Shown in pieces: positions 1,925 to 23,044 of a stretch of DNA of 23,914 bases. The notes under the pieces were generated by a model, which did no database searches, had not been told where the DNA came from, and saw only the letters and a list, made by a program, of their open reading frames with translations. The DNA lies in the IMG/VR virus record IMGVR_UViG_3300031659_000095, positions 1-23,914 of that record; one strand, 5' to 3'. The translations under genes and the position numbers were made by a program. Each line of letters opens with the position of its first letter. Within the stretch, counting starts at the first letter, position 1. This DNA comes from a virus.

Positions 1925-1935
1925 GTATTTATTAT

Positions 1936-1992: not shown

Positions 1993-2050
1993 ATACTTAT
2001 GTATTAAAGGGAAAATATTTAATATATAATTATAGTATTAACCAAACGAT
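1981..2050. other. AT-rich intergenic segment, possible origin or control region
   Basis: By hand count only 13 of these 70 bases are G or C (about 81% AT), well above the surroundings. It sits between the early cluster and the SSB gene. A short palindrome, GATCC (2048-2052) and GGATC (2061-2065), follows. AT-rich stretches next to replication genes can be melting regions of origins. No iterons are visible, so this is a suggestion only. Confidence 0.25.
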
Positions 2051-2090
2051 CCTAAGGTATGGATCATAACCACAAGAGAAGGAAGTAATT

Positions 2091-2456: not shown

Positions 2457-2458
2457 AA

Positions 2459-5805: not shown

Positions 5806-5824
5806 TCTTTTACCTGCTAATCCT

Positions 5825-6382
5825 ATGGGTGATAAGATAAAAAAACCTGAGAGATACAAGTTTGAAGGAGGAGAGTGGTGGTATTATTATCCAGAAAGCG
5901 GAACTAGTATTGAATCAGGAAATCATATTAAAGAAAGAGCAACCACTTTAAGACGTAAGCTAGATAAGATTAATTCAGAAAAGAAAAAGCATATGTATGT
6001 AAATGGTGAAAGGATTGCTGATACTCACCCCCTGTACAAGGCAGGAAGATACAAAGGGTTTGAGGAAGCGGCCTTTAGTTCTTTGGAAAACTACAAAGAC
6101 AGTGCGGAAGGTGAGGTTTACATAATTACTAACAAAGCGTGGCCTGAGTGGGTAAAGGTAGGCATGGCTGTAGACTCACAGGACAGGCTTAAGAATTATC
6201 AAACGTCCTCGCCCTTTAGAGATTATGTTTTACTGTACGTTTATGAAGTAAACGATAGGAGAGCAGGGGAATCAGCGGCACACACAAGACTAGCCAAGGA
6301 GTGCGACAACATTAACGAGTGGTTTAGAATCCCACCTGCTATAGCTAACGAGCTAATACTGGAAGTGATACATGAATACTAA
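5825..6382 (+). CDS. GIY-YIG nuclease of the T5orf172 type
   Basis: A 185-residue protein if begun at ATG 5825. The C-terminal 90 residues carry a GIY-YIG-like nuclease domain of the T5orf172 type: VYIITN in place of GIY, then VKVGMAVDSQDRLKNYQTSSP with the catalytic-type Arg, then AHTRL and NEWF. The N-terminal part is charged, with a WWYYY aromatic cluster and a Lys/Glu-rich helix. It would cut DNA; the target is unknown. Such genes are often selfish inserts, and this one sits between polymerase and exonuclease genes. The start is uncertain: ATG 5825 lacks a ribosome binding site, while TTG 5777 has AGGAGA 8 bases upstream and would overlap the polymerase end by 29 bp (201 residues). The end overlaps the exonuclease gene by 11 bp. 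Confidence 0.85.
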   Translation: MGDKIKKPERYKFEGGEWWYYYPESGTSIESGNHIKERATTLRRKLDKINSEKKKHMYVNGERIADTHPLYKAGRYKGFEEAAFSSLENYKDSAEGEVYIITNKAWPEWVKVGMAVDSQDRLKNYQTSSPFRDYVLLYVYEVNDRRAGESAAHTRLAKECDNINEWFRIPPAIANELILEVIHEY

Positions 6383-7667: not shown

Positions 7668-8055
7668 CGCAACACCTGCTGAGTGGGACAGACTACGTAA
7701 AGAACACCCTGCTATGGAAAAGGAGGAAAAAGTGCAAGACCCCCTTTATAACAAATGGATTGACGCGGCAATGGAGGAGGCACATGAGATGATAGTAAAG
7801 GAAAGTTGTACTCAAGACCTTGATTGGGGAGAGTGTGTGATCAACAGACCTATACACTACAACACAGGAAACATTGAGTGTATAGAAGCCATTGAAGAGT
7901 CCATGTCCTCAGTAGCTTTTAAGGGCTATCTCAAGGGCAACTGCATGAAGTACCTTTGGCGTTATGACTACAAGGGTAAGCAAGGGGAAGACTTACGGAA
8001 AGCACAGTGGTATTTAGACAAATTAACCATAATGGTTACAGAGGAGAACACTTAA
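7654..8055 (+). CDS. DUF3310 protein, T7 gp1.7-like nucleotide kinase family
   Basis: A 133-residue protein. ATG 7654 is chosen over the TTG one codon earlier because of the ATG and the GAGG 9 bases upstream. Residues from about 65 to 125 carry the DUF3310 signature: RPIHYNTGNIECIEAIE, then FKGYLKGNCMKYLWRYDYKGK, then EDLRKAQWYLDKL. DUF3310 includes T7 gp1.7, shown to phosphorylate dTMP and dGMP, so a role in dNTP supply fits its place just before the ribonucleotide reductase. The first 60 residues are a variable acidic region. Family is recognised with confidence; catalytic activity in this member is inference. Stop and next ATG overlap (TAATG). Confidence 0.88.
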   Translation: MRLNDATPAEWDRLRKEHPAMEKEEKVQDPLYNKWIDAAMEEAHEMIVKESCTQDLDWGECVINRPIHYNTGNIECIEAIEESMSSVAFKGYLKGNCMKYLWRYDYKGKQGEDLRKAQWYLDKLTIMVTEENT

Positions 8056-9932
8056 TGGATCAGTATCAACAGTTTATACACAAGAGCCGCTACGCACGTT
8101 GGATGCCAGAGCATAACCGTAGAGAGACATGGAGTGAGACAGTGTTTCGTTATGTACAGTTCTGGAGAGATCGTGAGCAGATTACAGTCAAGGAAGGACA
8201 GAAGCTATACGATGCAATACATAACCTAGAAGTTATGCCTAGCATGAGATGCATGATGACAGCAGGGGTGGCCTTAGACAAAGACAACGTAGCAGGGTTT
8301 AACTGTAGCTACTTGCACATAGACTCTCCACGCTCTTTTGACGAGCTTATGTACGTGCTTATGTGCGGTACAGGTGTGGGCTTTAGTGTTGAACGTAACT
8401 TTATCAATAAGCTACCAGAGATTGCTGAGACATTCCATAAGACCGACAGCCTCATTGTAGTGTCGGACAGTAAGATTGGATGGGCTTCCGCATTCCGTGA
8501 GTTGATCGCTATGCTGTACGCAGGTAAGATACCTCAGTGGGACGTAAGCAGAGTCAGAGGATCAGGTGAAAGACTTAAGACCTTTGGTGGTCGTGCGTCA
8601 GGCCCAGAGCCTTTGGTGGACTTGTTTAACTTCTGCATTGAAGTCTTCCAGAAAGCTAAAGGTCGCAAGCTGACATCCATTGAGTGCCACGACATCGTAT
8701 GTAAGATTGCTGATATTGTCGTTGTAGGTGGAGTTAGACGTTCAGCATTGATTAGCCTGTCTAACCTGTCGGATCAGCGTATGGCTAAGGCTAAGTCTGG
8801 TGATTGGGGGAGGAATGAAGGACAACGTGCATTGGCTAACAACAGCGTAGCGTACACAGAGAAGCCTGACTTTGAATCTTTCTTGTCTGAGATGCAGACT
8901 ATGTACGAATCTAAAGCAGGTGAGCGTGGTATCTTTAGTCGTGTAGCGGCACAGAAGATTGCAGGTCGCAATGGTCGTAGGGATGCAGAGCAGGACTTCG
9001 GGACAAATCCATGTTCGGAGATAATTTTACGATCTAACCAGTTTTGCAATTTATCTGAGGTGGTTGTACGTGCTGACGATACACTAAAGACGCTTAAGGC
9101 TAAGGTAGAAGTAGCGGCTATGATAGGCACACTACAGGCTACATTAACTGACTTTAGATACCTTAGGAATATTTGGAAGAAGAACACAGAAGAGGAAGCA
9201 TTGTTGGGTGTAAGCATGACAGGAATTATGGATCACCCTGTTATCGGCACAGCATCGGATAAAACCGTAGAGTGGTTAGAGGAACTAAAGAATGTTGCTG
9301 TTAAAGTTAATAAAAAATGGGCTGAAAAACTTGGCATTAATCAGTCTACAGCTATTACGGCTGTTAAGCCAAGCGGTACTGTATCTCAGCTTGTTGACAG
9401 TGCTTCTGGGATACACCCTCGTTTCTCTAAGCACTACATTAGAAGGGTACGTAGCGATAAGAAAGACCCACTTGCAGTCTTTATGGAAGCAAAAGGATTC
9501 CCAGTAGAGCAAGATGTTATGTCACCTAGCTCCTCTGTGTTTAGCTTCCCTGTGAAAGCACCTAAGTCTAGTACAACAGTTAAGCAAGTAGGTGCAATGC
9601 AACAGTTAGCCTTGTGGAAGACATACCAGAACCATTGGTGTGAGCATAAGCCAAGCATCACTGTTTATTATACAGATGATGAATTCCTGCAAGTTGCTCA
9701 GTGGATATGGGATAACTTTGACATCTGTAGCGGTATTAGTTTGTTGCCAGTGAGTGACCATGTTTATCAGCAAGCTCCTTATGAGGACATTACCGCTGAT
9801 GAATATAAAAAACTACTAGCAGAAATGCCTAAAGGTGTAGATTGGATTGATCTTGAACAGTTTGAACAAGAGGATAACACAACAGGCAGTCAAGAGTTAG
9901 CCTGTGCGGGTGGTACATGTGAAATAGTGTAG
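8055..9932 (+). CDS. nrdJ: Adenosylcobalamin-dependent (class II) ribonucleotide reductase
   Basis: A 625-residue enzyme that would reduce ribonucleotides to deoxyribonucleotides using vitamin B12 coenzyme, without oxygen or a second subunit. ATG 8055 overlaps the previous stop (TAATG) and has GAGGAG 8 bases upstream; the GTG at 8007 would add 16 residues but lies inside the upstream gene. All five functional cysteines of the Lactobacillus leichmannii RTPR type are present: Cys84 (FNCSYL), Cys320 (NPCSEI, thiyl radical site), Cys331 (QFCNL), and the C-terminal Cys617 and Cys622 (ACAGGTCEIV). The 11-residue and 5-residue spacings equal those of RTPR. GTGVGFSVE and AVKPSGTVSQ form the substrate site. 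It is shorter than RTPR (739). Last gene of the operon, before the terminator. Confidence 0.95.
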   Translation: MDQYQQFIHKSRYARWMPEHNRRETWSETVFRYVQFWRDREQITVKEGQKLYDAIHNLEVMPSMRCMMTAGVALDKDNVAGFNCSYLHIDSPRSFDELMYVLMCGTGVGFSVERNFINKLPEIAETFHKTDSLIVVSDSKIGWASAFRELIAMLYAGKIPQWDVSRVRGSGERLKTFGGRASGPEPLVDLFNFCIEVFQKAKGRKLTSIECHDIVCKIADIVVVGGVRRSALISLSNLSDQRMAKAKSGDWGRNEGQRALANNSVAYTEKPDFESFLSEMQTMYESKAGERGIFSRVAAQKIAGRNGRRDAEQDFGTNPCSEIILRSNQFCNLSEVVVRADDTLKTLKAKVEVAAMIGTLQATLTDFRYLRNIWKKNTEEEALLGVSMTGIMDHPVIGTASDKTVEWLEELKNVAVKVNKKWAEKLGINQSTAITAVKPSGTVSQLVDSASGIHPRFSKHYIRRVRSDKKDPLAVFMEAKGFPVEQDVMSPSSSVFSFPVKAPKSSTTVKQVGAMQQLALWKTYQNHWCEHKPSITVYYTDDEFLQVAQWIWDNFDICSGISLLPVSDHVYQQAPYEDITADEYKKLLAEMPKGVDWIDLEQFEQEDNTTGSQELACAGGTCEIV

Positions 9933-10010: not shown

Positions 10011-11693
10011 TTATTCTGTCGCCTCCATATCGTCATCAGCACCTTCAGGAGCAGTGGGTAGTTTCATAATTTCTACTAACATAGCACGATCAGTTTGCAA
10101 AGCTTTACGCATTTCATTTCCAAGGCTTTTTTTACCTAAGACACTATCTACTTCTCTTAAGGCCGCTGAAAGACCTCTACGTAAGCTAGGGCTAACACTA
10201 CCGCGATACACTGCATAACCTAAAGTTCCTGTAGCGGCAAGTCCTGTTAAAGCAGGTAAAGCACCTACAAAAGCAGCGCCGCCTAATACAGAACCAACTA
10301 TACCTACGTTAGCTACTTTACCTACCATAGTTTTAGGCATTGACAAATCAAGAGCATTGCTTACGTTTTGTGCAGTACGTCCTATGCTAGTATCTGCTTC
10401 TTGTGCCGCTTTAGGCAACACACGGTCTTTAGTTCTTAAAAGCAAGTGCTGTCTACGTAGTTTTTCTAAAACTTTAGTGTTTGGCACAGCTTCTGCAACA
10501 GACTCGTTTAAAAAATCCCTTACTAATCGCTGAGATACTGTCCAAGCATTTTCAGTTCCATCATAAGATGACTTACCTGCTTTTTTAGACCAATCGTCTA
10601 ACTGTCTACGAACGTCCATTATACTAGCAGGAGAGCCGTCTGCTTCTTTTAAAAGCCTTAATGCTTTGTTATATATTTTAGTAGCCACAGCCTTAGCATC
10701 CCCAATTAACACAGGGTTGTCATTTAAATCTATGTCTATTTTAACTTTAAGATCAGACTCAAGCTTTTTTTTATTAAATTTAAACTTAGATTTACGTAAT
10801 AACTTATTTAAACTATTGTGTGTAGTATTCACTTCTTTTTCTAGTACTTCTTTTATAGCAACAAAAGATTTTTTAGAGTTTATATCCTCAATACTTGATA
10901 GCACGTTGACCATCTCAACTTCAGTTTCTGTAGGAATGTAGGAATTACGCCCTTTTTCATCCTGAGTCATTCGTTCTGCTCTTTTTAGATCGTTAGCTGT
11001 TGTTGAGATAGGCTCAATAACTGTATTTAAGTAATCTCTTCTTTGACCTGTTTCTAAATGTATTGATCTTGCATACTGTTCGTCAGCTAGTGTACGTATA
11101 AGTGACGTATCCCTAACAGGCTTCCTTGTTAACGGAGGAGCAAACAACTCAGCGGTGTTAAAAACACCTTCCATTGCCCTACCAGTGCGGGGGTTAGCCT
11201 CTTTCCATTCCATGTAAGCATTAAAACTTGACTTAGCCGCTTCTAGCCCTGCACTTATTAAAGGGTTTTCTGCAACAACCCTCGCTGTTTCAGACAGGCT
11301 ATCAACTATTTTCTTTTCAACAGTATCAGGTATCATGTCGCTATACTGCATAGCTGAAAGTTTAACGCCTTGTCCTAGTAGGTCTAAGCCTGTACCTAAT
11401 AAACCACGCTTAGAAGCACCAAAAGCAAAAACTTTTTCAGGATTAGCAGGATCATCAAACTCTTGACCTAGTTCTTTTGCAAAAACAGGCACATCAGCAA
11501 TAGTTGCACCCATAGCACCAAAGGTTTTATTATAGTTTTTACCAGAAGTAAAAGCGGTAGGGTCATATCCTTCTACTGGAGCGGAGGCTTCTAAAGCATC
11601 TAACATGCCTACAAGTTCATCAACAGCCAATATGTCTTCTGCTTTATTTGCATCATCTAAAGCAGTAAGTAATTGTTCTTTTGTATAATCCAT
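10011..11693 (-). CDS. Probable virion/ejection protein with C-terminal membrane-like segment
   Basis: A 560-residue protein from ATG 11693 with AGGGA 7 bases upstream. No catalytic domain is recognised. The first half is Ala/Leu/Glu-rich and helical (EQLLTALDDANKAED near the start), the middle (about 270-340) is basic and coiled-coil-like, and residues 460-498 are a Gly/Ala/Val-rich hydrophobic stretch able to enter a membrane, followed by a charged helix and an acidic end (DDDMEATE). It is the last gene of the late operon, after the adaptor, nozzle and two other helical proteins. That position matches T7 gene 16, so a DNA-ejection role is inferred, although no transglycosylase motif is seen. 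Confidence 0.7.
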   Translation of the reverse strand: MDYTKEQLLTALDDANKAEDILAVDELVGMLDALEASAPVEGYDPTAFTSGKNYNKTFGAMGATIADVPVFAKELGQEFDDPANPEKVFAFGASKRGLLGTGLDLLGQGVKLSAMQYSDMIPDTVEKKIVDSLSETARVVAENPLISAGLEAAKSSFNAYMEWKEANPRTGRAMEGVFNTAELFAPPLTRKPVRDTSLIRTLADEQYARSIHLETGQRRDYLNTVIEPISTTANDLKRAERMTQDEKGRNSYIPTETEVEMVNVLSSIEDINSKKSFVAIKEVLEKEVNTTHNSLNKLLRKSKFKFNKKKLESDLKVKIDIDLNDNPVLIGDAKAVATKIYNKALRLLKEADGSPASIMDVRRQLDDWSKKAGKSSYDGTENAWTVSQRLVRDFLNESVAEAVPNTKVLEKLRRQHLLLRTKDRVLPKAAQEADTSIGRTAQNVSNALDLSMPKTMVGKVANVGIVGSVLGGAAFVGALPALTGLAATGTLGYAVYRGSVSPSLRRGLSAALREVDSVLGKKSLGNEMRKALQTDRAMLVEIMKLPTAPEGADDDMEATE

Positions 11694-11695
11694 GT

Positions 11696-13054
11696 TTATT
11701 CCCTATTGAGGAGATTTAGATATTTTGCCGCGTTTGGAGGAGTAGAGTACCCTTTTCTAGCAGGTAATGGAATATAATAGCTTTCAGCTAATTCAGGAGA
11801 TAACCCTCCTTTACCTATTGCAACAGACCTTTCAAGTGCTGTGTTACTTTTTGTTATTAAATCACGAGCATATTTTTCTTCTAATCTAAGCAAAGCACGT
11901 AAAGCGTTTTCGTCCATGCTTATGTCTCTTAAAGCAATTTTAGAAGCTACTTCCCTATCTGAATCCGAAAGGCCAGAACCTGCTCCAAAAGCGGGCATAA
12001 TTTTCATTAACTGTTCTGCTCTAAGTATTAGATATTGCTCAGTAGCCGCAATATTATCCATATCTTTAGGAACCATTCCTAATTCTTTAGCTACGCGAGA
12101 CACATTAAGGAAAAACTCAGCACCAAAACCTGTTTTAATGCCTCCCTCTCTATCTAACAAAGCCACAGACTCTTTATTAGTTCTTAGTATTTCTTCAGCA
12201 TCGCGAGCTTTTGAATTAAGCTCTAAGAAATTTGAAGCGGCACCTACAGTTAAAGCTTTAGCATAAGCATTAGATTCTGATAACTGTTTAGTAACCTGAG
12301 GAGCTTGTGTCAAACCTAACTCAGAAGGGAACGCCCATTTTTTAGTTTCGTCGTTCCAAACTTTACCCGCTTTATTAATACGAAAAGGTCTAGAAACACC
12401 CTTAGCATCATTAAAGACTTTAAGGTCAGCTTCTTCACCTGATATTGTACTAATAAACTCTGACACAGACAATCCATCATACTCGCCCCTATCAATAGCT
12501 TTTTCAATAGCTTCTCCTGCGTTTCTTGACTGAGCGACGGCTTTTTTACCTCTGCGTCCTTGCTGAGATACAACATCTTTTTCTTCCTGCTTTCTTATTT
12601 GTTCTGCGGCTTTGTCCATATCGCCACCGTTTTGCAACAACTCAGAAGTAGATGTTAAACCTAAATCTAATGCGGCTTGTATTAAAGTAGACCTACGCTC
12701 GTCTTGTGCTATTGCACCTTCTTGTTTTGCTTTAAATTGAGCTTCTATTTCAAAAGCTTTTTGTTGATCAATTGTACTTAAAAGCTGAACAATTTTAGGT
12801 TGGTCTTTTGGGTCTTTAGGGTTTAGTTTTTTTAACTCTTCCTGTACTTTTTGAGAAGGACTACGTAAATCCTTACCCATTAGTCCTCCCATCCCTTCAC
12901 GCGCCATTTCACGATACATAGGCCGACCTGCTTGAACGGCTTGTCCAATAGGCCCCATGCCTGAAGCATTTTTACTTAGCAAAGCTGTTGCTTGCTGATT
13001 AGGGTCTTGGGAAATACCTGTAAGCATTCCTGCATAATCTATTGAATCAGCCAT
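11696..13054 (-). CDS. Probable internal virion/ejection protein, helical
   Basis: A 452-residue protein from ATG 13054, whose ribosome binding site GGAGGAGGTG is coded in the Gly-rich end of the upstream gene, with stop and start overlapping (TAATG). It has a Gly/Met-rich N-terminal part (about 30-65: GMGPIGQAVQAGRPMYREM), a charged Lys/Gln/Glu helical region with coiled-coil look (about 65-190), a short domain with aromatic residues (about 190-245), and a long helical C-terminal part ending LPARKGYSTPPNAAKYLNLL. No enzyme motif, signal peptide or membrane span is visible. Placed between two other probable ejection genes; analogy to T7 gp15 is by order only. Confidence 0.65.
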   Translation of the reverse strand: MADSIDYAGMLTGISQDPNQQATALLSKNASGMGPIGQAVQAGRPMYREMAREGMGGLMGKDLRSPSQKVQEELKKLNPKDPKDQPKIVQLLSTIDQQKAFEIEAQFKAKQEGAIAQDERRSTLIQAALDLGLTSTSELLQNGGDMDKAAEQIRKQEEKDVVSQQGRRGKKAVAQSRNAGEAIEKAIDRGEYDGLSVSEFISTISGEEADLKVFNDAKGVSRPFRINKAGKVWNDETKKWAFPSELGLTQAPQVTKQLSESNAYAKALTVGAASNFLELNSKARDAEEILRTNKESVALLDREGGIKTGFGAEFFLNVSRVAKELGMVPKDMDNIAATEQYLILRAEQLMKIMPAFGAGSGLSDSDREVASKIALRDISMDENALRALLRLEEKYARDLITKSNTALERSVAIGKGGLSPELAESYYIPLPARKGYSTPPNAAKYLNLLNRE

Positions 13055-14013
13055 TATTCACCTCCTCCACCAAATAAACCTGATAACCAACCACTAGAAC
13101 CAAACGGGTCTAAATCTTTTAGCCATTGGGGGGTATCATACAACTGGTCTAAAAAACTATCATTTGTAAACGGATTAGAGTTTGAGCCATCTTGACCACT
13201 ACCACCCGTTAGTAAGCCACCTACAGCATTGGTTCCTGAGCCACTACCTAAAAGTAGGCTTGTTAAATCTTGATTCCTTCCTTGTCTCATAGCCCCTGCG
13301 TTTTGCTGTGCCTGTAGCAAAGCTTGTAAACCAGACTGACCTAACTGTGCTTGTAGCTGTGCGCCAGTTCTACCACCTGTGCTTGCAAGATTAGCCATGT
13401 TTCCACCCATACCTAAAGCCGCCAGTTGTTGTTGCTGTGGTACATAGCTTTGACCTAATAATCCTGTACCTAAACCTAACTGCTGTTGTTGCTCACCTAA
13501 AGCTTGTGATCTAGCTTGGTATGCCGCGGCATTCTTTGCTTCCTCTTGAGCTTTAGACAACGCAAATTGCTCTGGAGTTCCACCGTATTGTGAAGTACGT
13601 AAACCACCCCTACCTTGGGCTTGTAGCTGTTGGTTTAGCATCTGTTGCCTACGTTGTTCCTCAGGCATCTGTAAACCTCTAATTTGACCGTACAGGTCAC
13701 TAGAGGCTTGGGACACATCACCAGTTACATTACCAAACAAAGTGTTTGCTTGGGCTTGCATGGCTTTTTCCTGTGCCAACTGCTGAGGATTTAAACCTAA
13801 GTTAAAGCCCCCAGTAGCATCAACGGCTGTGCTACCTGTTCCCGTGGTTACAGCAAAAGGTTTAAAAGCAGACGTACCTATCGCTGTTTGTCCCATTTCC
13901 GTAGCCGCACCTAAAGCTCCTCTACCTATGTCTAACGCATCACCGATTCCTTGTTGCGAAGAATAATAACCTGCTCCCGCTTTTAATAAATCAGTTAAAA
14001 ACCCATTTGCCAT
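13054..14013 (-). CDS. Gln/Gly/Ala-rich probable internal virion protein
   Basis: A 319-residue protein from ATG 14013, overlapping the nozzle gene stop (TAATG), with GGGAG upstream. Composition is striking: long Gln runs (QQLQAQGRG, EQQQQLGLG, PQQQQLAALG), much Gly and Ala, few acidic residues until the end. It opens with a short amphipathic Gly/Ala helix (FLTDLLKAGAGYY) and ends with Asp/Pro/Trp-rich residues (DTPQWLKDLDPFG) and Gly-rich GLFGGGGE. This is the style of small podovirus ejection proteins such as T7 gp14, and gene order agrees. No domain is recognised, so the role is inference. Confidence 0.68.
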   Translation of the reverse strand: MANGFLTDLLKAGAGYYSSQQGIGDALDIGRGALGAATEMGQTAIGTSAFKPFAVTTGTGSTAVDATGGFNLGLNPQQLAQEKAMQAQANTLFGNVTGDVSQASSDLYGQIRGLQMPEEQRRQQMLNQQLQAQGRGGLRTSQYGGTPEQFALSKAQEEAKNAAAYQARSQALGEQQQQLGLGTGLLGQSYVPQQQQLAALGMGGNMANLASTGGRTGAQLQAQLGQSGLQALLQAQQNAGAMRQGRNQDLTSLLLGSGSGTNAVGGLLTGGSGQDGSNSNPFTNDSFLDQLYDTPQWLKDLDPFGSSGWLSGLFGGGGE

Positions 14014-15533
14014 TATATCAATCTCCCAAGTAGTGCTAATATGTCAATTTTTTGTATAGAAAAAGCCGCGTCATTAATTTGCGCCTCAATGCCAAAGGTA
14101 ACAACGCTTCCGCTACCTGATCCGTTTACTTTTGGTGTTTGTATTATAATAGATGAGGAATATTCAGCGGCTTCATTATATTCTGCAATACCATACTCAG
14201 CTAGATTACTTGTTCCAAAATTAAATGATTGTTTGCTGTAATCTGTTAAATAATCATAACCCCAGTTTAAAGCAGTTTCTGTGTTTTGACCACCAATAAT
14301 TGTCAAGTTAAATTTCTTCAAAAACTTTAAGTTAGAAGAATTACCAAAATCTACAGGATTACTAAAATAACGCATTTGGAATTTCTCTGCGTTGTCTAAG
14401 TATCCGCTGTACTCAACAATACCTGTTGGTTTACCTATGTAAGTATTACCATTAGCTGTTAAAGCGTAACACAGTGGATTAATAACAGACCATGTTGTTA
14501 CTCTGTGTGAGCCATCTTGTAATGCAGACCGCATATCAAAACAATAAACAATCTCTGACGTTTCAAGAGATAACAGATAAAAAGCTTCATCAGCACTGTA
14601 ATGTGCTTTGATAGGTGAGTTCTGTATTTTAACTAAAGACGTTAGCTCACTACGCACGTTTTTGCTTATGTCTCGCATAGGCATTGATTTTTCTTGTACA
14701 ACACGTTGGAAGCTACGCACACCATCTTCAGATAAAAATACTAAATCAACACCTGTGTTTTTAACAGAGTCTCTTGCAATACAACCAACACCTGCAATTG
14801 TATCCGCTAAGGTCATGTTTGCAGGAACGCTTGCTCCACTGTAAACAAGAATAGACCGCTTGCCAAAGATAATTAAAAAATCATTGTGTGCCGCTATTGA
14901 TGTTATTTCGTCATAACCTGTAGGCCATACACTAGTAACATCAAGGCTACCTGAAGAACCACCAGACCACTTACGCCCATGTAGTAAGTCACTAAAATAA
15001 ATAGTGTGTTTGTCTCCTGTTACATCAGCAACCCAAAGCCTACCAAAAGCCGCTAATACTTCATTACCTTGTGGTTGTGTGCCTGAGGCGTTAGAAGCGT
15101 CTTCCGCTTCTGTTAGTGCGCTTCCATCATAAAGTAAAGGTTTGTGCGCTCTTTGATAAAAAAACAAATTATTGGCTAGAGATACTATCTTCCAATTGTT
15201 TGCTGTAATGTTTGTACCGCTAGGTGTAACATCAGTAAGCGTGGTTGTCCCTGTAAATATTTTATTGTTTCCCGCTGAAAAAACAGTAATAGAACCGTCA
15301 TATTCAGTAAACTCAAATATAGTCTCAATGCCTTTACTTGTGCCTAAAACACTAGCACCGTTTGTTGTTACAGGCTCATAGCCTTTACGCGCGCCTACAC
15401 GACCTAATTGGTCAATAACACAGTTGTCTGCAATTGACGCAAAGGAAGGATCAAGACCAATAGGTGAGTCCTGTGTGTTTATCCCCGCAAATCCTGGGGC
15501 CGCAATTGTTAGCGGTTGTAGTTGTTGAGCCAT
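14013..15533 (-). CDS. Podovirus tail tube (nozzle) protein, gp12/gp10-like
   Basis: A 506-residue protein from ATG 15533, which overlaps the adaptor gene stop (TAATG); a TTG five codons upstream is open but less likely. The start AQQLQPLTIAAPGFAGINTQ, followed by DNCVIDQLGRVGARKGYEPV, is characteristic of podovirus tail-tube proteins. The rest is rich in Thr, Ser, Asn and aromatic residues in repeated strand-turn units (FGRLWVADV, NDFLIIFGKRSILVYSG, CFDMRSAL), as expected for a beta-propeller such as P22 gp10 (472 residues) or the core of T7 gp12. It would lengthen the short tail below the adaptor ring. Neighbours (adaptor before, ejection proteins after) support this. Confidence 0.8.
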   Translation of the reverse strand: MAQQLQPLTIAAPGFAGINTQDSPIGLDPSFASIADNCVIDQLGRVGARKGYEPVTTNGASVLGTSKGIETIFEFTEYDGSITVFSAGNNKIFTGTTTLTDVTPSGTNITANNWKIVSLANNLFFYQRAHKPLLYDGSALTEAEDASNASGTQPQGNEVLAAFGRLWVADVTGDKHTIYFSDLLHGRKWSGGSSGSLDVTSVWPTGYDEITSIAAHNDFLIIFGKRSILVYSGASVPANMTLADTIAGVGCIARDSVKNTGVDLVFLSEDGVRSFQRVVQEKSMPMRDISKNVRSELTSLVKIQNSPIKAHYSADEAFYLLSLETSEIVYCFDMRSALQDGSHRVTTWSVINPLCYALTANGNTYIGKPTGIVEYSGYLDNAEKFQMRYFSNPVDFGNSSNLKFLKKFNLTIIGGQNTETALNWGYDYLTDYSKQSFNFGTSNLAEYGIAEYNEAAEYSSSIIIQTPKVNGSGSGSVVTFGIEAQINDAAFSIQKIDILALLGRLI

Positions 15534-16180
15534 TAAACAGCCGTCCAAATAGTTTCATCAGGGAATTGTGCGGCATCAAAAGCCACTGCATCAGCTATAG
15601 CTCTGTCAGCTAAACCAAACTGCTCTACAGCACTAGTACCGCCTGTTTCTCCTCGCTCTCTAGCACCTAACGCAGTTGCAAGTAAAACAACAGGGTGGTT
15701 AGGTATTGTTATTCTATCCGTATCCGCTGACAAATCAGGAGTACGCTGTACAACATTAAAATTAAGAGAATAGACACCATCAGGAGCAGGATAGACATCA
15801 AACGTATTATCTCCGTTACTGTCTACGCTTTTGTACGTATAATAAAGAGGAGACCCTTCAGGAGCATCTTGATTCAAATATACGTTACGCATCCAACTAG
15901 AGCCTCTGCGTTGCATAAATGTATTACTTGTATCATTAATAAGATCAAGTATTTTCATTTGATTTTGAGAGCCAGTAATTGTGTAGGTATATGTACCTTG
16001 AGAAGTGTTGATAGCCTTAGTAGTCCTAAGTGCTGTCCAATCCCAAGTTTGCTCTATTGTTTGCTTGGCTTCATTTACAAGCTCCCCAACAAGTTTAGAA
16101 TAAGCGTTTTGTGAGACAGCGGATACTTCGTCTTCCCGTAGTCTTCTTAAAACACTGTTTACTAGTTGTAGGTAAGTCAT
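15533..16180 (-). CDS. Tail adaptor (head-tail connector) protein, T7 gp11-like
   Basis: A 215-residue protein from ATG 16180, overlapping the stop of the giant gene (ATGA). The N-terminal helices MTYLQLVNSVLRRLRED, then LVGELVNEAKQTIEQTWDWTALR, followed by Thr-rich strands (QGTYTYTITG) and a C-terminal helical part, match the layout of podovirus adaptor proteins (T7 gp11, 196 residues; P22 gp4, 166). These form a dodecamer under the portal and hold the nozzle. The gene order adaptor then nozzle is typical. Exact family membership is by eye. Stop overlaps the next start (TAATG). Confidence 0.82.
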   Translation of the reverse strand: MTYLQLVNSVLRRLREDEVSAVSQNAYSKLVGELVNEAKQTIEQTWDWTALRTTKAINTSQGTYTYTITGSQNQMKILDLINDTSNTFMQRRGSSWMRNVYLNQDAPEGSPLYYTYKSVDSNGDNTFDVYPAPDGVYSLNFNVVQRTPDLSADTDRITIPNHPVVLLATALGARERGETGGTSAVEQFGLADRAIADAVAFDAAQFPDETIWTAV

Positions 16181-19100
16181 CCTCTATTCCTTTTTTCTGT
16201 ATATAAAAAATCAACAAGTTCTTGAGTATCTTCAATCTTTGTATCAAACTCAAACATATCTCCAAACAAATCATCTGTAGTTCTTGAGGCTAACTTTGTA
16301 AGTCTTTCTGCTTCTGCGGCTTGTAACATACTGTCTGCGGTTGCACTAGTAGCTCCTAATATACCACCTAAGCCACCTAATGCTAAACTTAACATGTCTT
16401 CTAAGGCATCACCTGTTCCGCTCAATAGCTCTTCAAGGGTCTGACCTGTAGCATTAGATAGGTCATCTAAGTTAGACTCTGCTGTACCGACTAAACCATC
16501 AATAGACTCTCCAGTAACGTCTATTAGGTCTTCTAGCGTACCTGAGGTTCCATTAATTAAATCGTTAATAGATGACCCTGTTGCTTCCGCTAAGTCTTCT
16601 AAACTAGTTCCGGCGCTTTCTAATAACTCTTCAATTGTTTGACCAGTAGCCTCAGCTAAGTCCGCTAAACCACTTTCTGCACCCCCTAACAAATCTTCTA
16701 TAGACTGACCAGTAGCTTCAGCCATGTCAGATAAAGTAGTACCCGTGCCGCTTATAAGGTCTTCAAGACTTTCCCCTGTAGCGTTAGATAAGTTATCTAA
16801 AGTAGTAGCGGCTTCGGTTGTTAAGTTTTCCAACGTGCTTGTAAGCTCACCAATAGCTTCTTCAGTTGTGTCTAACATGTCCTGTAAAGAAGTACCTGTA
16901 ACACCTATTAAATCATCTAAAGTTTCTTCGGTAGCGTCAGCTAAATCTTGTAGATTAGTTTCAGCAGTGCCTACTAGGTCTTCTATAGATTGTCCAGAAG
17001 CATCAACCAAATCTTGTAAGCTTCCTGCCGCACCGCTAGTTAAGTCAGCTATTGTTTCGCCTGTAGCATCGGCTAAGTCTTGTAAGCTGATGTTTGTGTT
17101 TGACAATAAATCTTCTAACGACTGACCAGTAATGTCTAATAAGTCAGCTAAACTAGCGTCAGCACCTCCTAATAAATCTTCTATAGAAGTACCCGTGGCT
17201 TCAGCTAAATCATCTAAAGAAGTACCCGCGCCTGTTATTAAATCTTCTATACTTGTACCTGTAGTAGTAGATAGTAAATCTAACAACTCAGCGGCAGTGT
17301 TTGTTAAGTTAGTTAAGTCTATTTCTGCTGATTCTGTAAGGTCTGTTAAAGCAGTATCAGTTTCGTTAATTAAATCAGTTAAAGCTGTACCTGTTTGACC
17401 TAACAAGTCATCTATAGTCTGACCTGTAGCATCAGCCAAGTCTTGTAAGTTAGTCCCTGCTCCGTTTACTAAATCTTCTATACTAGTGCCTGTAGCTGTA
17501 GCAAGTTCCGCTAAGGTAGTACCAGAGCTTTCTAGCATGTCTTCTATAGTCTGACCTGTAGCATCGGCTAAGTTTTGTAGACTAGTTCCTGCACCGTCAA
17601 TAAGATCATCAATGCTTGTACCTGTAGCATCAGCAAGGTCAACTAGATCGCTAGATGCTTGGTCACGTAACTCTGCTAAGTTAGTCCCTGCTGTAGTTAA
17701 TAAATCATCAATTGTAGTACCTGTGGCTTCAGCTAGTTCATCTAAAGAAGTACCCGCTCCATTTACTAAATCGTCTATACTAGTGCCAGTAGCGGTGGCT
17801 AAGTCTGCTAAGTTAGTACCTGCATTATCTAAAAGCTCTTCTATAGTCAAGCCCGTAGCATCAGCTAGGTCTTGTAGATTAGTACCTGCTCCTGAAACTA
17901 AGTCATCTATTGAAGTGCCTGTTGCTTCAGCAAGAGCATCTAAATTAGTAGCCGCTGTATCTGTTAAGTCAGTAATTGCTGTACTGGTAGAACTGAACAA
18001 ATCCTCTAAAGTTGTACCTGTAGCAGTTGCTAGGTCATCTAAGTTTGTACTAGCAGTACCTACTAAATCTTCAAGAGAGGTGCCAGTTTGAGACATTAAA
18101 TCATCTAAGCTTCCTGCCGCTCCACTAATAAGCTCATCAATAGAAGTACCCGTAGCAGTAGCTAACTCTTCTAAGCTAGTCCCTGCATTGTCTAACAGTT
18201 CTTCTATAGTTTGACCTGTAGCATCAGCAAGGTCAGACAAGCTAGTCTCAGCGCCACCTAGTAGCTCCTCAATAGACACACCAGTAGCGTCAGCTAACTC
18301 ATCTAATGTAGTCCCTGCACCACTTATTAAATCTTCAATGCTTAAGCCTGTGGCGGTAGTTAAAGTATCAAAAATACCTTCAAACGTGTTATAAAGCTCT
18401 TCAACATTAGCGTCTACACCATCTACACCATCTACACCATCTACACCATCTACACCATCTACACCATCTACACCATCTATGCCGTCTATGCCGTCTATGC
18501 CTATTCCATCTACACCGTCTACACCATCTATGCCGTCTATTCCGTTTGCAGGTATAGTTGAAACATCTGGAGGTGTAAAGTCTGGCTCTTGATCAAACAG
18601 ATCAGTAATGTCAGAGTAAAAATTGCTAAGTTGATTGTACATTTGCTGTTGTTCTTGAGGTGAAGCTTCTAACCACTCAGCAAAAGAAATACCTGCCGCA
18701 TCCATTATTGTTTCAAGAGTATCGCCTGTAGCGTTGCCTATGTTGACAACCAAATCTTCCATTGTTAAGCCAGATTGGTCATCAGTAAAGTTACCTAATA
18801 AAGACATAGCTCCGCTTGTTACTGCGCCTAGACCATCAGCTACAGCGTCAGTTAACGTACCTGTAATGTCAGAGAAACCTTCAATCATTTCTTCTATGGG
18901 TAACGCGTCTGCAACGTTGCCTACTGTTTCTAGGAAAGGTGCTAATACACTGCCATCTAAAGCGTCTCCCCAACCTTCCAACATAGTACTTAGGCCGTCT
19001 ATACTGTTTAATAATGATTCGCTAAGTTCTCCGTTGTTTTGGAAGTCTTCAATAAGAACCTCTACACCACTGTTTAAAACAGCTTCCTCTAAGCTTATAC

Positions 19101-20454
19101 CCGTGGCTACGTCTGACAAAATACCTGTCAAACCTTGACTTATAGCGTCTGTAGTTAGGCCGCTTGCATCGGCCCACCCCTGTATAGTATCTTCATCAAA
19201 CCCTAAAGTACCTAATAAGTCTCCTCCAACCATAGTAGATATAACACCACTAAAGTCTCCTGCTCCTGCGGCTGATATAATAGCTTGTGTTTGTTCGTAA
19301 GTTGTACCCATTAAACCCGTGCCGCTAACTGCTACACCGCCTGCATTTACCGAAGGAGGTTTAATAATACCTGATGCTTCCAAACCCCCTGCAACTAAAC
19401 TAGCCCAATCAGAAGCGTGAAGAGTATGCCCACTAGCCGCTTTAATCGCAGTAAGTGCCGCAGTGCCAAAAGGTATGCCCATAGCAATAATGTTAGTTAT
19501 AGGATTATTTAAAAAAGTATCCCACGTACTTTCCTCTGGAGGGTCTTCAAACCACATCATGGTGTACTCACCTACACCCGCTGCGCCCCCTGAAATATCA
19601 AGGAAATACCCGCGATCTTGTAAATCTCTGTACTGCTCTCTATCTTCATCGCTAAAGCCTTGGTACATGTCCGTGTTACCACCCGTTTCAGGGACTTTCA
19701 TGTACAAGTTATCACCGTCATAGTCGTAAGGGTAATCAACTTCAAAAGTAGTCGCTGTAGGACTGCTTTGTGCTAGACTGTGTTCACGAACTAGCTCTAA
19801 AAAAGGTAAACCAATTAACTGATCTCTTGCCCAACCTTCAAAGTTTGTCCCCGCTAGCTCTCCACGGTTAGGATCAAAGTTGTTAAAGGCGTAGTCCATT
19901 TTAATCTGAAGTTGAGATTCGAAATCTTCCCCACCTAATACACCAGAATGCCAATCAACAATGTTAAAAACATCTTCTTCAGCGGATGGTTGCGTGTCTT
20001 CAATAGGCTCAGAGCCTTCCATAACTCCTGAACCGTCATCTGTAGTAGGTGCAGTAGTGTCCTCAAAGATAGAAGGGTCATTATTAGGGACTGTGTAAGG
20101 GTCAGTAGGCTTAGGCGCTGTAGTCTGTGAATCATCCCAAGGGTCTATAGGAGTGGGCTTAGGTGTAAGGTTTGAAAACAAACCGTCTGTTGTTCTTGTT
20201 GGTAAAAGTATAGGAGCTACAGGAGCTACAGGAGCTACAGGAGCTACAGGAGCTACAGGAGCTACAGGAGCTACAGGAAGCTTAGGTGTTGTTCTAGGAG
20301 CTACAGGAGGATTACTATCATCATAAGGCGCAGGTGCTACAGGTTTAGGCGTAGGTGTAACTATAGGAGAAGGCCTGACTTCAAACTCAGGCTCGTCAAA
20401 AGTACTAGCAAAAGGATTATTAGTTCCGTTAAAACTTTGTGGAAACCTTGCCAT
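16177..20454 (-). CDS. Giant repetitive fibrous protein with collagen-like and 11-residue repeats
   Basis: A 1425-residue protein from ATG 20454 (ATGA overlap with the holin stop). In order: Pro/Thr-rich N-terminus with a Pro-Val-Ala array (about 61-81); acidic Thr/Asp/Pro linker; mixed domain with aromatics (about 165-300); a Gly/Ala-rich hydrophobic helical region (about 315-350); Asp/Gly/Leu-rich part to about 635; collagen-like Gly-(Val/Ile)-Asp (638-681); 59 units of 11 residues plus one 7-residue insert (701-1356), mostly in pairs like ATGTSIDDLVS/GAGTNLQDLAD; and a C-terminal Gly/Leu segment with a charged end. No enzyme motif. Collagen-like tracts and long repeats are typical of trimeric phage fibres, and it lies just before the tail genes, so a fibre or other virion role is inferred. 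I do not recognise the family. Confidence 0.85.
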   Translation of the reverse strand: MARFPQSFNGTNNPFASTFDEPEFEVRPSPIVTPTPKPVAPAPYDDSNPPVAPRTTPKLPVAPVAPVAPVAPVAPVAPVAPILLPTRTTDGLFSNLTPKPTPIDPWDDSQTTAPKPTDPYTVPNNDPSIFEDTTAPTTDDGSGVMEGSEPIEDTQPSAEEDVFNIVDWHSGVLGGEDFESQLQIKMDYAFNNFDPNRGELAGTNFEGWARDQLIGLPFLELVREHSLAQSSPTATTFEVDYPYDYDGDNLYMKVPETGGNTDMYQGFSDEDREQYRDLQDRGYFLDISGGAAGVGEYTMMWFEDPPEESTWDTFLNNPITNIIAMGIPFGTAALTAIKAASGHTLHASDWASLVAGGLEASGIIKPPSVNAGGVAVSGTGLMGTTYEQTQAIISAAGAGDFSGVISTMVGGDLLGTLGFDEDTIQGWADASGLTTDAISQGLTGILSDVATGISLEEAVLNSGVEVLIEDFQNNGELSESLLNSIDGLSTMLEGWGDALDGSVLAPFLETVGNVADALPIEEMIEGFSDITGTLTDAVADGLGAVTSGAMSLLGNFTDDQSGLTMEDLVVNIGNATGDTLETIMDAAGISFAEWLEASPQEQQQMYNQLSNFYSDITDLFDQEPDFTPPDVSTIPANGIDGIDGVDGVDGIGIDGIDGIDGVDGVDGVDGVDGVDGVDGVDANVEELYNTFEGIFDTLTTATGLSIEDLISGAGTTLDELADATGVSIEELLGGAETSLSDLADATGQTIEELLDNAGTSLEELATATGTSIDELISGAAGSLDDLMSQTGTSLEDLVGTASTNLDDLATATGTTLEDLFSSTSTAITDLTDTAATNLDALAEATGTSIDDLVSGAGTNLQDLADATGLTIEELLDNAGTNLADLATATGTSIDDLVNGAGTSLDELAEATGTTIDDLLTTAGTNLAELRDQASSDLVDLADATGTSIDDLIDGAGTSLQNLADATGQTIEDMLESSGTTLAELATATGTSIEDLVNGAGTNLQDLADATGQTIDDLLGQTGTALTDLINETDTALTDLTESAEIDLTNLTNTAAELLDLLSTTTGTSIEDLITGAGTSLDDLAEATGTSIEDLLGGADASLADLLDITGQSLEDLLSNTNISLQDLADATGETIADLTSGAAGSLQDLVDASGQSIEDLVGTAETNLQDLADATEETLDDLIGVTGTSLQDMLDTTEEAIGELTSTLENLTTEAATTLDNLSNATGESLEDLISGTGTTLSDMAEATGQSIEDLLGGAESGLADLAEATGQTIEELLESAGTSLEDLAEATGSSINDLINGTSGTLEDLIDVTGESIDGLVGTAESNLDDLSNATGQTLEELLSGTGDALEDMLSLALGGLGGILGATSATADSMLQAAEAERLTKLASRTTDDLFGDMFEFDTKIEDTQELVDFLYTEKRNRG
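16387..18354 (-). repeat. Array of 59 eleven-residue repeats (66-bp paired units)
   Basis: Counted by hand, the coding strand runs through 59 units of 33 bp with one 21-bp insert (16816-16836), all in frame. Most form 66-bp pairs coding the alternating halves [A]TGxSIxDLxx and GAGTxLxDLAx. Units are diverged in codon use, so the array is old enough to have drifted rather than recently expanded. Unpaired single units occur, for example TAATNLDALAE and QASSDLVDLAD. Confidence 0.92.
18412..18543 (-). repeat. 9-bp tandem repeat encoding a collagen-like tract
   Basis: Fourteen 9-bp units plus one 6-bp unit. On the plus strand seven consecutive units read (a/g)tctacacc, six of them identical (18421-18474), then three (a/g)tctatgcc, tattcc, and four more. 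They code 14 Gly-(Val/Ile)-Asp triplets with one Gly-Ile break. Identical short units are prone to slippage, always in frame. Confidence 0.93.
20212..20274 (-). repeat. 9-bp tandem repeat encoding a Pro-Val-Ala array
   Basis: Seven exact copies of aggagctac on the plus strand (gtagctcct on the coding strand), with another copy of the same unit near 20296. They code repeated Val-Ala-Pro near the N-terminus of the giant protein. An extended, stiff linker is expected, and copy number may vary in frame. Confidence 0.92.
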
Positions 20455-20837
20455 CAGTTATTTCTCGCTACGTTATTTTTCTTTTCATAAGAACGCATGG
20501 CTCCTAGACCTAACATACCCATAAGTACGCTAGTGAGCAATGAACTATCTACAGGAGGGACAGTGAACCAGATGCCTAAGATGGGTGCTAAGATTGTAGA
20601 GTAAAGTAAAGCTAATCCACATATCCAACCAATCGCAGGTCGCCATCCAGAAACAAACAAACTCTTATGTGCCGCTTCAACTTTATTGACCTCTAACTGA
20701 CCTTTGGCTAACTCTTGAGCATGACGCTCTGCCATAGTCGCTAGTTCAAAGGCTATGTTGTTTTTAGTGTCTTTGTCTTCAATAACTTTATCTAAAAGAC
20801 TAGTTATAGGACTTATCAATGAAGTTAAAATACTCAT
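20454..20837 (-). CDS. Holin of the GTA/3TM type
   Basis: A 127-residue protein from ATG 20837. A GTG at 20849 overlaps the previous stop (TAGTG) and would add four residues; the ATG gives the usual family start (MSILTSLISPITSLLDKV). After a charged helix (residues 20-55, including ELATMAERHAQELAKGQLEVNK) comes the family hallmark GWRPAIGWICGLALLY, a first span, then a Pro-rich turn, a second hydrophobic segment and LTSVLMGMLGLGAMRSYEKK. This is the pattern of the GTA_holin_3TM family, which makes inner-membrane holes for lysis. It follows another holin-like gene and overlaps the giant gene (ATGA). Function by family is likely; lytic activity is unproven. Confidence 0.85.
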   Translation of the reverse strand: MSILTSLISPITSLLDKVIEDKDTKNNIAFELATMAERHAQELAKGQLEVNKVEAAHKSLFVSGWRPAIGWICGLALLYSTILAPILGIWFTVPPVDSSLLTSVLMGMLGLGAMRSYEKKNNVARNN

Positions 20838-20840
20838 ATT

Positions 20841-20869
20841 ATTATACACTATTTTTTGTTAGAAGTCAA
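20841..20869 (-). promoter_or_regulatory. Near-consensus sigma70 promoter inside the lysis genes
   Basis: On the minus strand TTGACT (20869-20864) is followed by exactly 17 bases and then a perfect TATAAT (20846-20841). It spans the end of the 61-residue holin-like gene. Transcription would begin near 20834, just past the ATG of the 3TM holin, so a transcript from here would serve the giant gene and the genes beyond rather than the holin itself. It may be a real internal promoter or a chance match. Confidence 0.5.
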
Positions 20870-21052: not shown

Positions 21053-21529
21053 TTATTTAAGCGGGTTGCTGAGGTAGTCTATTGCAGACCATAAATCTTC
21101 AACTTCTCTTTTAATAGCTATAGTTTTTGCTTCAAAGCCTGTTACTTTTTCTGTAACGATTTCTGCTTTTGCTACCGTTGCCTTCATTGCTTCAATTTCT
21201 TTGTCAAGCGAAGTAACATTGTCATCAATTAATAACAACTTTTGTTGCTGATCTATAATTGTTTGAAGGTTTACGCCTAAAGCCGCAAGCTTTCCTTGTA
21301 ACTGGGAGACATCATTAGCGAGTAACTCTTGCTCTATTAAAAGAATTTTCTCTTCTAGTGGCACAATGTTTGGGATGCTTACAACCTCTACAGCTTCTAG
21401 TCTCGCATACAGGCTACTAGCTGTCCACACACCACCGCCAAGAGTAGTCGCAAGGCTAAACAAGATAGCAATATAAACACCTTTGAAAGATGTGCCGCCA
21501 ATGTTTAGTTCAGTTTCAGCAAGACTCAC
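21053..21529 (-). CDS. Single-span membrane protein with long coiled coil (spanin-like or virion-associated)
   Basis: A 158-residue protein starting at GTG 21529, which overlaps the previous stop (GTGA). Residues 17-40 (GVYIAILFSLATTLGGGVWT) form one membrane span; the remainder is a charged helical region with Leu/Ile at heptad-like spacing (LEEKILLIEQELLAND and onward). A short N-terminus inside, one span and an outer coiled coil is the architecture of inner-membrane spanins (Rz), and it lies next to holin genes, so a lysis role is reasonable. No partner lipoprotein is clear. Similar proteins occur in marine phages without known function. Confidence in topology is high, in role low. Confidence 0.6.
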   Translation of the reverse strand: MSLAETELNIGGTSFKGVYIAILFSLATTLGGGVWTASSLYARLEAVEVVSIPNIVPLEEKILLIEQELLANDVSQLQGKLAALGVNLQTIIDQQQKLLLIDDNVTSLDKEIEAMKATVAKAEIVTEKVTGFEAKTIAIKREVEDLWSAIDYLSNPLK

Positions 21530-22380
21530 GTTTCATCGCCTACGTCACAATCAGTTTGATACATAAAGCAATTAAAACCCAATGCAGTAGGGCCACTGTT
21601 ATAAAACATGCTTTCATAGCCAGTATTTAAGATAGTAGTTTCAGTTGCGTAAATGTCTAAGCCGTAATCACCTTGGCCGTTTAGATAAATACTGCTTACT
21701 GTGTCGTTGTTAGCCCATGCCATTTCTACAACTTGATTTGCAGAGCTATAAGTTAAAGCGTTATCTTCGACGCGAGTGTTGTTAGCCATTGCACCTTCCA
21801 TTAGAAACGCAACAGCTTCTGGGTTTCCTGCTACAGCTAAGAAAGCTCCTGCGGCATTGGCGTGGTTTTCTATATCGTCAAGACTCTGGTTGTAGGTATC
21901 AGCATCATCTTGGCTAACAGACAGATCATTCTGAGCTACATAGTCTTGCACTTCAGCTTGGTCATCTGGAGTCTCTGCGGCTTCAGCACGTTCCGCTACT
22001 TCTTGGACTGACAGCATGTCAACAACGACAGTCGTAAAGTCTTCAATAGCCGCTTCCATTTGCTCAATTTCATTTTGAGCTTGTTGATTCGCGTAATCTT
22101 CTGCCGATCCATACGGCATATAATTGACCATGCCTGTTAGTGCCGCATTGTAATTAGCTACTTGCTCGTTAGAAATGTAGTAGTTACCTGAAAGTTGACC
22201 GCTAGAAATACCCATGCCTGTTTGAGCCGCGTTAATTGAACCACCAACAAACATAATGCCGCTGTTAATCTGATCTACAATCGCGCTACTAGTTGCTATC
22301 AGCGTATCAAGCTCACTTGATTGAACGCCTGAACATATCAGAAACAGACTTGTCAGAGCCGCTTTCTTCATTTTCTTCAT
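21526..22380 (-). CDS. Exported protein of unknown function, acidic
   Basis: A 284-residue protein from ATG 22380, with GGAG 9 bases upstream. It starts MKKMKKAALTSLFLICSGVQSSE: two Lys pairs, a hydrophobic core and small residues, a typical secretion signal with likely cleavage after GVQS or nearby. The mature part is acidic, rich in Ala, Asn, Gln, Asp and Tyr, with a Glu/Ala-rich helix (about 95-155). Its only mature cysteines are near the end (NCFMYQTDC) and could pair. The start lies inside the upstream gene, giving a 68-bp overlap that encodes the signal peptide. I recognise no enzyme motif. A periplasmic or envelope target late in infection is inferred. Confidence 0.7.
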   Translation of the reverse strand: MKKMKKAALTSLFLICSGVQSSELDTLIATSSAIVDQINSGIMFVGGSINAAQTGMGISSGQLSGNYYISNEQVANYNAALTGMVNYMPYGSAEDYANQQAQNEIEQMEAAIEDFTTVVVDMLSVQEVAERAEAAETPDDQAEVQDYVAQNDLSVSQDDADTYNQSLDDIENHANAAGAFLAVAGNPEAVAFLMEGAMANNTRVEDNALTYSSANQVVEMAWANNDTVSSIYLNGQGDYGLDIYATETTILNTGYESMFYNSGPTALGFNCFMYQTDCDVGDET

Positions 22381-23044
22381 TTTCTGTCACTCCAATTCCT
22401 AGTATTTGGTTGTACCACTTTTGCGTTGGTGTGTATTTTGGAAACTTTGGTCTTTTCGTTATTAGCGCATGTTTTGACATATGCACCTCACCGTAATCTG
22501 GGATGTATAGGTTTGGCTGTGTTTTCATCAAAAGAAAAGCGCGTTTACCTACTATTAGTTTCCCACTGGCGATCACTGGGCAGGGTGTAGCCGACATCAT
22601 CATGGCTCTAAATGTTTCAACTGAACCCTGACAAAGGCGGCTGATCGCGGCTACTTTCATTCCGAGGTCACTTAGGAGCTTGGCATCACGCCTACGGTTA
22701 CAGTCCACATCCTTTTCATAAGAGCCATCTGTATATCCAATTAGCCCTGTTTGAATACTGCGCCCACTTCCTTGTAGGCACGTTTCCATCCCATTAGACA
22801 TATAGGAAGGGGCAATAGCAGAGCCTACTGGCATTGAGGAGCTAGACCCTGCACCGTTATAAGTGTTGCTTACTGAATCATCTTTGCTGTTGTTATTACT
22901 ACTTACAGTTGAGCCAACAGTGTTTGTATTCAAAGAGCCATCTTGATTGTTCGTTGAGTCGGTATCGCCCATTGGCTCTGTTTCTTGTGCTGTACAAAAA
23001 CAAGTAACGACAAACAATAAGAAACATTTTAGAATCAAACGCAT
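22313..23044 (-). CDS. Exported cysteine-rich protein of a marine phage type
   Basis: A 243-residue protein from ATG 23044, directly after the previous stop. Residues 1-20 (MRLILKCFLLFVVTCFCTAQ) are a secretion signal; the TxxC/CFC cysteines lack a good lipobox. Residues 21-75 are an Asn/Ser/Thr-rich linker. The core, about 85-180, has ETCLQGSG, DCNRRRDAKLLSDLGMKVAAISRLCQ and ATPCPVIASG, with four cysteines likely to form disulfides in the periplasm. I have seen this CLQGxG/DCxRRRDAxxL pattern in marine phage genomes, where function is unknown (from memory). The C-terminal part is basic then acidic. It may act on the envelope or be a virion part. Overlaps the next gene by 68 bp. Confidence 0.7.
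   Translation of the reverse strand: MRLILKCFLLFVVTCFCTAQETEPMGDTDSTNNQDGSLNTNTVGSTVSSNNNSKDDSVSNTYNGAGSSSSMPVGSAIAPSYMSNGMETCLQGSGRSIQTGLIGYTDGSYEKDVDCNRRRDAKLLSDLGMKVAAISRLCQGSVETFRAMMMSATPCPVIASGKLIVGKRAFLLMKTQPNLYIPDYGEVHMSKHALITKRPKFPKYTPTQKWYNQILGIGVTENEENEESGSDKSVSDMFRRSIK

Follow-up and report, generated by a model that had tools for sequence, protein, structure and literature searches.

The building of phage proteins from eleven-residue repeats is a principle already known. Siphophage tape measure proteins carry variable numbers of such repeats, blocks of which are duplicated or lost as a whole and among which spacings of 11 and 18 residues are mixed, with orthologous units closer to each other than paralogous ones (PMC3271669). 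In the tailless phage phiX174, the virion protein H assembles as a decamer into a tube whose lining consists mainly of amide and guanidinium groups; the long alpha-helices of H combine hendecads (11,3) with heptads (7,2), the hendecads being three in number (PMC7354561). Steps of eleven residues also occur in a bacterial surface adhesin, the trimeric autotransporter NadA, whose oligomeric coiled-coil stalk distances the head domain from the surface and contains only two undecads among its heptads (PMC6191539). Phage SU10 has six long tail fibres of about 70 nm docked on its adaptor, and its nozzle is plugged by a tail needle (PMC9509320).

The window considered here is the whole of a virus fragment of 23,914 bases (IMG/VR record IMGVR_UViG_3300031659_000095). 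Its minus strand holds an open reading frame for a protein of 1,425 residues (16177..20454), termed protein X in the following, which has positional homologues in relatives and carries a long array of hendecads. X is likely a virion rod, either an adaptor-linked fibre or needle or a component of an ejection tube, and its array probably fixes how long a virion fibre or spacer is. The start of the gene overlaps by 1 base the stop of the gene directly upstream, which encodes a three-TM holin (GTA_holin_3TM; 20454..20849, minus strand; Pfam PF11351, 59.3 bits; PHROG 3427), and its stop overlaps by 4 bases the start of the gene directly downstream, which encodes a head-tail adaptor of the SU10 type (15533..16180, minus strand; Pfam PF24175, 55.4 bits over nearly its full length). 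The window and SU10 have this adaptor family in common while their gene order differs (PMC9509320), and family searches gave no sequence relation of X to the SU10 fibre or needle. Beyond the adaptor, the minus strand encodes a nozzle or head-closure (Hc3-like) protein (14013..15548; PHROG 3287 and 578, and relatives) and three proteins of 319, 452 and 560 residues (10011..14013), which are without family match and are assigned to the podovirus ejection-protein position by position only. Upstream of the holin lie two minus-strand genes (21526-23044) for proteins of 284 and 243 residues with apparent N-terminal signal peptides.

The array itself (16387-18354, minus strand; residues 701-1356) measures 656 residues, or 59 x 11 + 7. 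A first, sequence-only reading had laid it out as 59 consecutive units; a dynamic-programming register search retains the 59 units and gives up the single register, placing 46 units in strict register (residues 701-1206; 16837..18354), a seven-residue insert, TLENLTT, which corresponds to two turns and preserves the hydrophobic stripe (residues 1207-1213; 16816..16836), and 13 further units (residues 1214-1356; 16387..16815), all on the minus strand. Self-identity of the array is 0.31 at lag 11 and 0.45 at lag 22, compared with 0.115 ± 0.012 (maximum 0.16) in 2,000 composition shuffles. That the array is acidic and nearly free of basic residues, as the same reading stated, is borne out by its composition of 0 Lys, 1 Arg, 80 Asp and 57 Glu (137 acidic residues), with 0 Trp, 1 Phe and 0 Pro; Lys and Arg together account for 9.2% of the other minus-strand proteins of the window. 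Also confirmed is the hydrophobic character of unit positions 6, 9 and 10 (65/66, 65/66 and 57/66, counted over the 66 units found across the whole of X), which together with Thr/Ala at position 2 fits the a-d-e-h set of a hendecad. Gly, Thr and Ser are concentrated at positions 2-5, with Gly at position 3, and the Thr/Ser-x-x-Asp capping pattern seen earlier is present in the 59 array units, 88% of which have S/T/N/D at position 5 and 90% D/E at position 8; an N-cap-like residue at 5 is combined with an acid at 8 in 80%. Plus-strand open reading frames of 133, 88 and 159 residues within the array were discounted as arising from the repeat.

The hydrophobic period of the window array is 3.67 residues (power 68-79) and is coherent along the array; in the relatives L006 and L008 it is 3.62 over 520-625 residues (power 101-114). 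Steps of 7 and 47 residues, found in the window and in relatives, preserve the helical phase, as do the spacings in L006/L008 that are not multiples of eleven (18, 25, 29, 36 and 40 residues; R=0.88, n=13, drawn from only two sequences that are related to each other). Register shifts in short-form members (15, 19, 23 and 30 residues) lie one residue off the 7/11 series, a point against the rod. By its periodicity and its phase-keeping register changes the array is alpha-helical in character, and these features point to helical rods; the a-d-e-h pattern and the helix-compatible register changes are also those of an oligomeric coiled-coil fibre.

Several features count against one uninterrupted helix: unit positions 3-5 form a stretch poor for helix, the Gly/Thr/Ser cluster at positions 2-5 disfavours a continuous helix, and Pro is present in the repeats of short-form relatives. 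An AlphaFold monomer model of a 297-residue array fragment (pLDDT 65, pTM 0.23) gave helices mainly of 8, 19 and 30 residues (mostly 11n-3) broken at ATG, which is neither a single continuous helix nor a confident fold. With this model, the PDB chains selected by Foldseek gave no match above Z 4 and BFVD gave none at E below 0.001; a PDB sequence search returned weak matches only, to a designed repeat (8vd6), a DARPin and apolipoprotein A-I. The model of the short-form homologue L038 (pLDDT 54) yielded only generic long-helix matches (Z up to 6.5), its BFVD matches to internal virion proteins being below significance. The period, the register changes and the podoviral synteny uphold the proposal that a phage virion-module protein contains a helical repeat of 11 residues, whereas of the coiled coil of about 98 nm envisaged as one helix the hendecad periodicity holds and the monomer model does not show the continuity.

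Outside the array (all coordinates on the minus strand), X opens with the motif NPFASTFD (residues 13-20; 20395..20418), one of the [SDN]PF[ADETV] motifs of its family, followed by a proline-rich (PVA)n repeat encoded by a perfect 9-bp tandem repeat (residues 60-81; 20212..20277) and by RTTDGLF (87) and DPWDDS (104). The exchangeable N-terminal module and the conserved family core defined by alignment A1 and by module exchange extend over residues about 160-640 (18535..19977), with a domain at about residues 160-290 and a conserved Gly-rich hydrophobic segment, NPITNIIAMGIPFGTAALTAIKAASG, at residues 317-342 (19429..19506). This segment is only mildly hydrophobic, with a median of 1.28 for the best Kyte-Doolittle mean over 21 residues. 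A collagen-like (G-[IV]-D)n linker, again a 9-bp tandem repeat (residues 638-682; 18409..18543), scores 19.0 bits against Pfam Collagen, under the cut-off of 27.2, and is not conserved, being absent in L002 and L004, the latter of which has an unrelated acidic linker instead. A trimer inferred from this linker was rejected because of that lack of conservation. The C-terminal tail (16180..16386) contains the conserved motif RTTDDLFGDMFEFDTKIEDTQELV at residues 1391-1414, and an RTTDxLF-like motif lies near the C-terminus in 34 of 46 full-length family members. Across these 46 members [SDN]PF[ADETV] occurs 8.9 times per 1000 residues in the first 100 residues, 6.5 times in the last 60 and 0.07 times between; the terminal motifs may resemble docking peptides. 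L018, L019 and L044 also have an NPFA motif close to the N-terminal end of their putative first ejection protein, and the 11 residues PTMMADPRQQV are common to X of L056 (residues 27-37) and a putative ejection protein of that locus (ORF at 6517, residues 12-22). A further module of ~70 residues (NAQVDANGNPVYATYSYDPQNDTYTA...) is N-terminal in the L004 protein at 1719-5705, where it forms a tandem pair at residues about 77-225; it occurs once in L002 and was not seen in the window.

Three rounds of searches in uncultured viral contigs (4, 28 and 61 loci) place X in a family without annotation that comprises about 60 contigs. In nearly all contigs that cover the neighbours, the member sits between a holin-like gene and an adaptor starting MTYL. 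The window (15533-20849) shares the features by which we define this holin-X-adaptor family, namely a three-TM holin on one side of the gene and an SU10-type adaptor on the other, the conserved core of alignment A1 and the C-terminal RTTDxLF motif. Members carry the hendecads between the core and the C-terminus. Usual ones have 490-670 residues and a few hendecads; longer ones are L050 and L054 (about 890 residues), L006/L008 (1,149-1,284), L002/L004 (1,322-1,328) and the window protein (1,425), the number of units rising from a few in most members to 47-59 in the group of the window. Short-form units such as VTGDVVEDVAQ follow the same pattern as ATGTSIDDLVS of the window, and the window protein is an expanded form. 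In L024 and L030, the slot of X is occupied by proteins of 1,506 and 1,274 residues (L024:181-4701, L030:519-4343) with 15-residue YATPEQV repeats, long helical segments and a stripe near 3.6, for which no convincing homology to the rest of the family was detected.

The relatives L058 and L087 encode a portal, a scaffold, an N4-gp56-like capsid protein, fibre and spike proteins, an adaptor and a nozzle. In relatives spanning portal to last structural gene, neither a tail tube nor tail chaperones were recognised among the genes, four proteins there being without match, and on the strength of this gene content the lineage is taken to be podoviral. Since fibre and spike genes are encoded separately, X need not be the receptor fibre. 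Protein searches with five family members found no homologue in 50,697 cultured phage genomes, six isolate loci gave no match to the family profile, and a scan of bacterial and archaeal genomes gave no homologue. Judged by these searches, the cultured collection (50,697 genomes) has no match for the family, for its podoviral setting or for so extremely acidic an array. The initial remark that no phage fibre of this form is known needs qualifying, in that precedents exist for the repeat (PMC3271669; PMC7354561), with none for X itself.

Between related arrays, 46 window units align one-to-one, with 88% identity to L004 and 68% to L002, compared with 35-39% between non-orthologous units, so that orthologous units are closer than paralogous ones as in tape measures (PMC3271669). 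A lineage-specific block of 13 units plus the seven-residue insert (residues 1064-1213; 16816..17265, minus strand) is absent from L002, L003 and L004 and resembles units 1-13 and 48-59 of the window at 58-59%; L003 has a block of 9 units. Change between arrays comes in whole blocks, with 46 units remaining collinear. In the array, dN is 0.086 and dS 0.313 against L004 (dN/dS 0.28), and dN is 0.267 and dS 1.404 against L002 (dN/dS 0.19); with dN well below dS in both comparisons, the array is under purifying selection. Against L004, dS is uneven, at 0.06 in the adaptor, 0.31 in the array and 0.87 in the core, a sign of mosaic descent. The window domain at about residues 200-290 has no counterpart in L004, whose region there matches the short-form loci L014 and L010, and the adaptors of window and L004 are 98.6% identical despite the differing N-terminal modules. 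Likewise, L038 and L067 have 68% of the core in common and not the N-terminal module.

How should the array then be read? The best PHROG match of X is a tape measure family (E=7e-34), and a tape measure of a long-tailed phage, with the units as ruler for tail length, would agree with the published variable repeat numbers and 11-11-18 pattern and with the look-alike block duplications and mixed 11/18 spacings of X (PMC3271669). We nevertheless hold this to be very improbable, and the label was rejected, the rival being largely refuted, on the Trp/Phe test and gene content: X has variable-number repeats but lacks the Trp/Phe marker at 11 or 11-11-18 spacing, the published patterns being absent from 46/46 members; adaptor and nozzle are podoviral; the long-tail module with tail tube and chaperones was not found in the window or in L058/L087, where four proteins are without match; basic residues are nearly missing; and the PHROG matches are spread over many tape measure families and driven by repeat composition. 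PHROG and Pfam matches to transcription regulators (HTH) were likewise rejected as an indication of function and reflect the local pattern LAxATGxS. Even less credible is a disordered acidic spacer in which only length or charge matters. The extreme composition, the low-complexity PVA and GVD repeats elsewhere in X and the only moderate confidence of the array model would suit it, but the exact helical periodicity, unit-by-unit orthology at 68% identity and a dN/dS well below 1 speak against it. A chain of short amphipathic helices, in which every unit or pair would be a helix with a T-G turn, making a solenoid or an apolipoprotein-like flexible belt, is unlikely, although several observations lean that way: the helices broken at ATG, the N-cap box with Gly at position 3, Pro in the short forms, helix-turn-helix profile matches and the weak similarity to 8vd6. 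The whole protein also scores 120.6 bits against Pfam Apolipoprotein (PF01442; cut-off 90), repeat composition being weak evidence of descent, and apolipoproteins A1/A4/E share with X amphipathic helical repeats of 11/22 residues, their 22-mers resembling the modelled 19-residue helices with 3-residue turns. On the other side, profile matches to many unrelated helical families indicate compositional bias rather than homology, the model has a pTM of 0.23 and no fold match, and a solenoid would not require the phase-preserving 7- and 47-residue steps. Having no Lys and a single Arg among its 656 residues, the array lacks the interface basic residues of a class A lipid-binding helix and is therefore not typical of that membrane-binding class; X further differs in its viral context and in having no Pro punctuation, and the missing basic residues and Pro argue against apolipoprotein membership, with no evidence of shared descent.

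The main rival is an ejection (pilot) protein, by which X would be stored in the head and exit with the DNA, and its hendecad helices would form an alpha-helical barrel across the periplasm, akin to phiX174 H or the T7 core proteins, with the hydrophobic segment in the membrane and an acidic lining that stops DNA sticking. This has a real yet rather low probability in our view. H provides a hendecad/heptad tube for DNA passage, and X resembles it, by sequence pattern only, in its hendecad/heptad alpha-helical region (PMC7354561); the core of X conserves its Gly-rich hydrophobic segment, PTMMADPRQQV and NPFA recur in putative ejection proteins, and no beta-structured fibre tip was found. Against this, X is encoded apart from the genes downstream of the nozzle that are presumed to form the ejection-protein cluster, its strong acidity contrasts with the amide and guanidinium lining of H, the hydrophobic segment is mild and internal virion proteins are matched in BFVD without significance. 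H moreover has 3 hendecads compared with 59, and no sequence match between it and X was found.

We favour, tentatively, the view that X is a virion-assembly protein of uncultured marine podoviruses and that its array is a lengthened alpha-helical rod, acting as adaptor-linked fibre or needle. In favour of this rod are the 3.67 period, the phase-keeping steps, the whole-block indels, purifying selection, the holin-X-adaptor synteny and the podoviral module, and also the exchange of N-terminal modules beside near-identical adaptors, the end-enriched terminal motifs and the helical repeats that L024 and L030 have in the slot. The positions 6, 9, 10 and 2 (a, d, e and h) would line up as a hydrophobic stripe and so let chains join into an oligomeric, near-straight coiled-coil rod, whose length would follow the unit number, from roughly 10-18 nm in short forms to about 98 nm in the window if continuous; the monomer model, in breaking the helices at ATG, does not display such continuity per chain. 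The rod would keep the exchangeable N-terminal module at a distance from the tail, comparable to the stalk of NadA, the terminal motifs would dock on the nozzle or the adaptor, and the rod, being negatively charged throughout, would stay soluble and extended. The word fibre in the sequence-only reading names only one of the two virion roles considered. A Lys/Arg-free podovirus hendecad rod of ~100 nm with unit-counted length, be it an adaptor-anchored needle or an acidic alpha-helical DNA conduit across the envelope, is a speculative and improbable version of these ideas.

The analysis brings out a widespread, unannotated gene family in the virion module of marine phages together with one extreme member. 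Should the rod be virion-exposed or form an ejection channel, the array lengths from a few to 59 units would offer a natural series for podovirus fibre or channel length. Length control has been studied mainly in long-tailed phages, and a unit-counting rod, if real, would be a ruler-like element in a phage group without a tail tube to measure. The near-absence of basic residues across 656 residues makes the array a test case for the stability of helical rods in seawater ions.

The plus-strand half of the window encodes a primase-helicase, a DNA polymerase A, a 5'-3' exonuclease, an endonuclease I, a DUF3310 protein and a B12-dependent ribonucleotide reductase, the last of which (8007-9932) matches the B12-dependent ribonucleoside-triphosphate reductase model TIGR02505 with 332.3 bits, just below the cut-off of 340.05. 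On the same strand, tetrapeptides of the form G-[DSN]-[VI]-x (GDVQGSVIGDVQGSVIG...) make up most of a protein of 101 residues (451-756); in the DNA they correspond to a 12/24/48-bp tandem repeat, and the only match of the protein, to a glycine zipper, is sub-threshold. A T5orf172/MUG113 (GIY-YIG-like) gene (5654-6382, plus strand) has its listed start ~150 bases inside the 3' end of the DNA polymerase gene.
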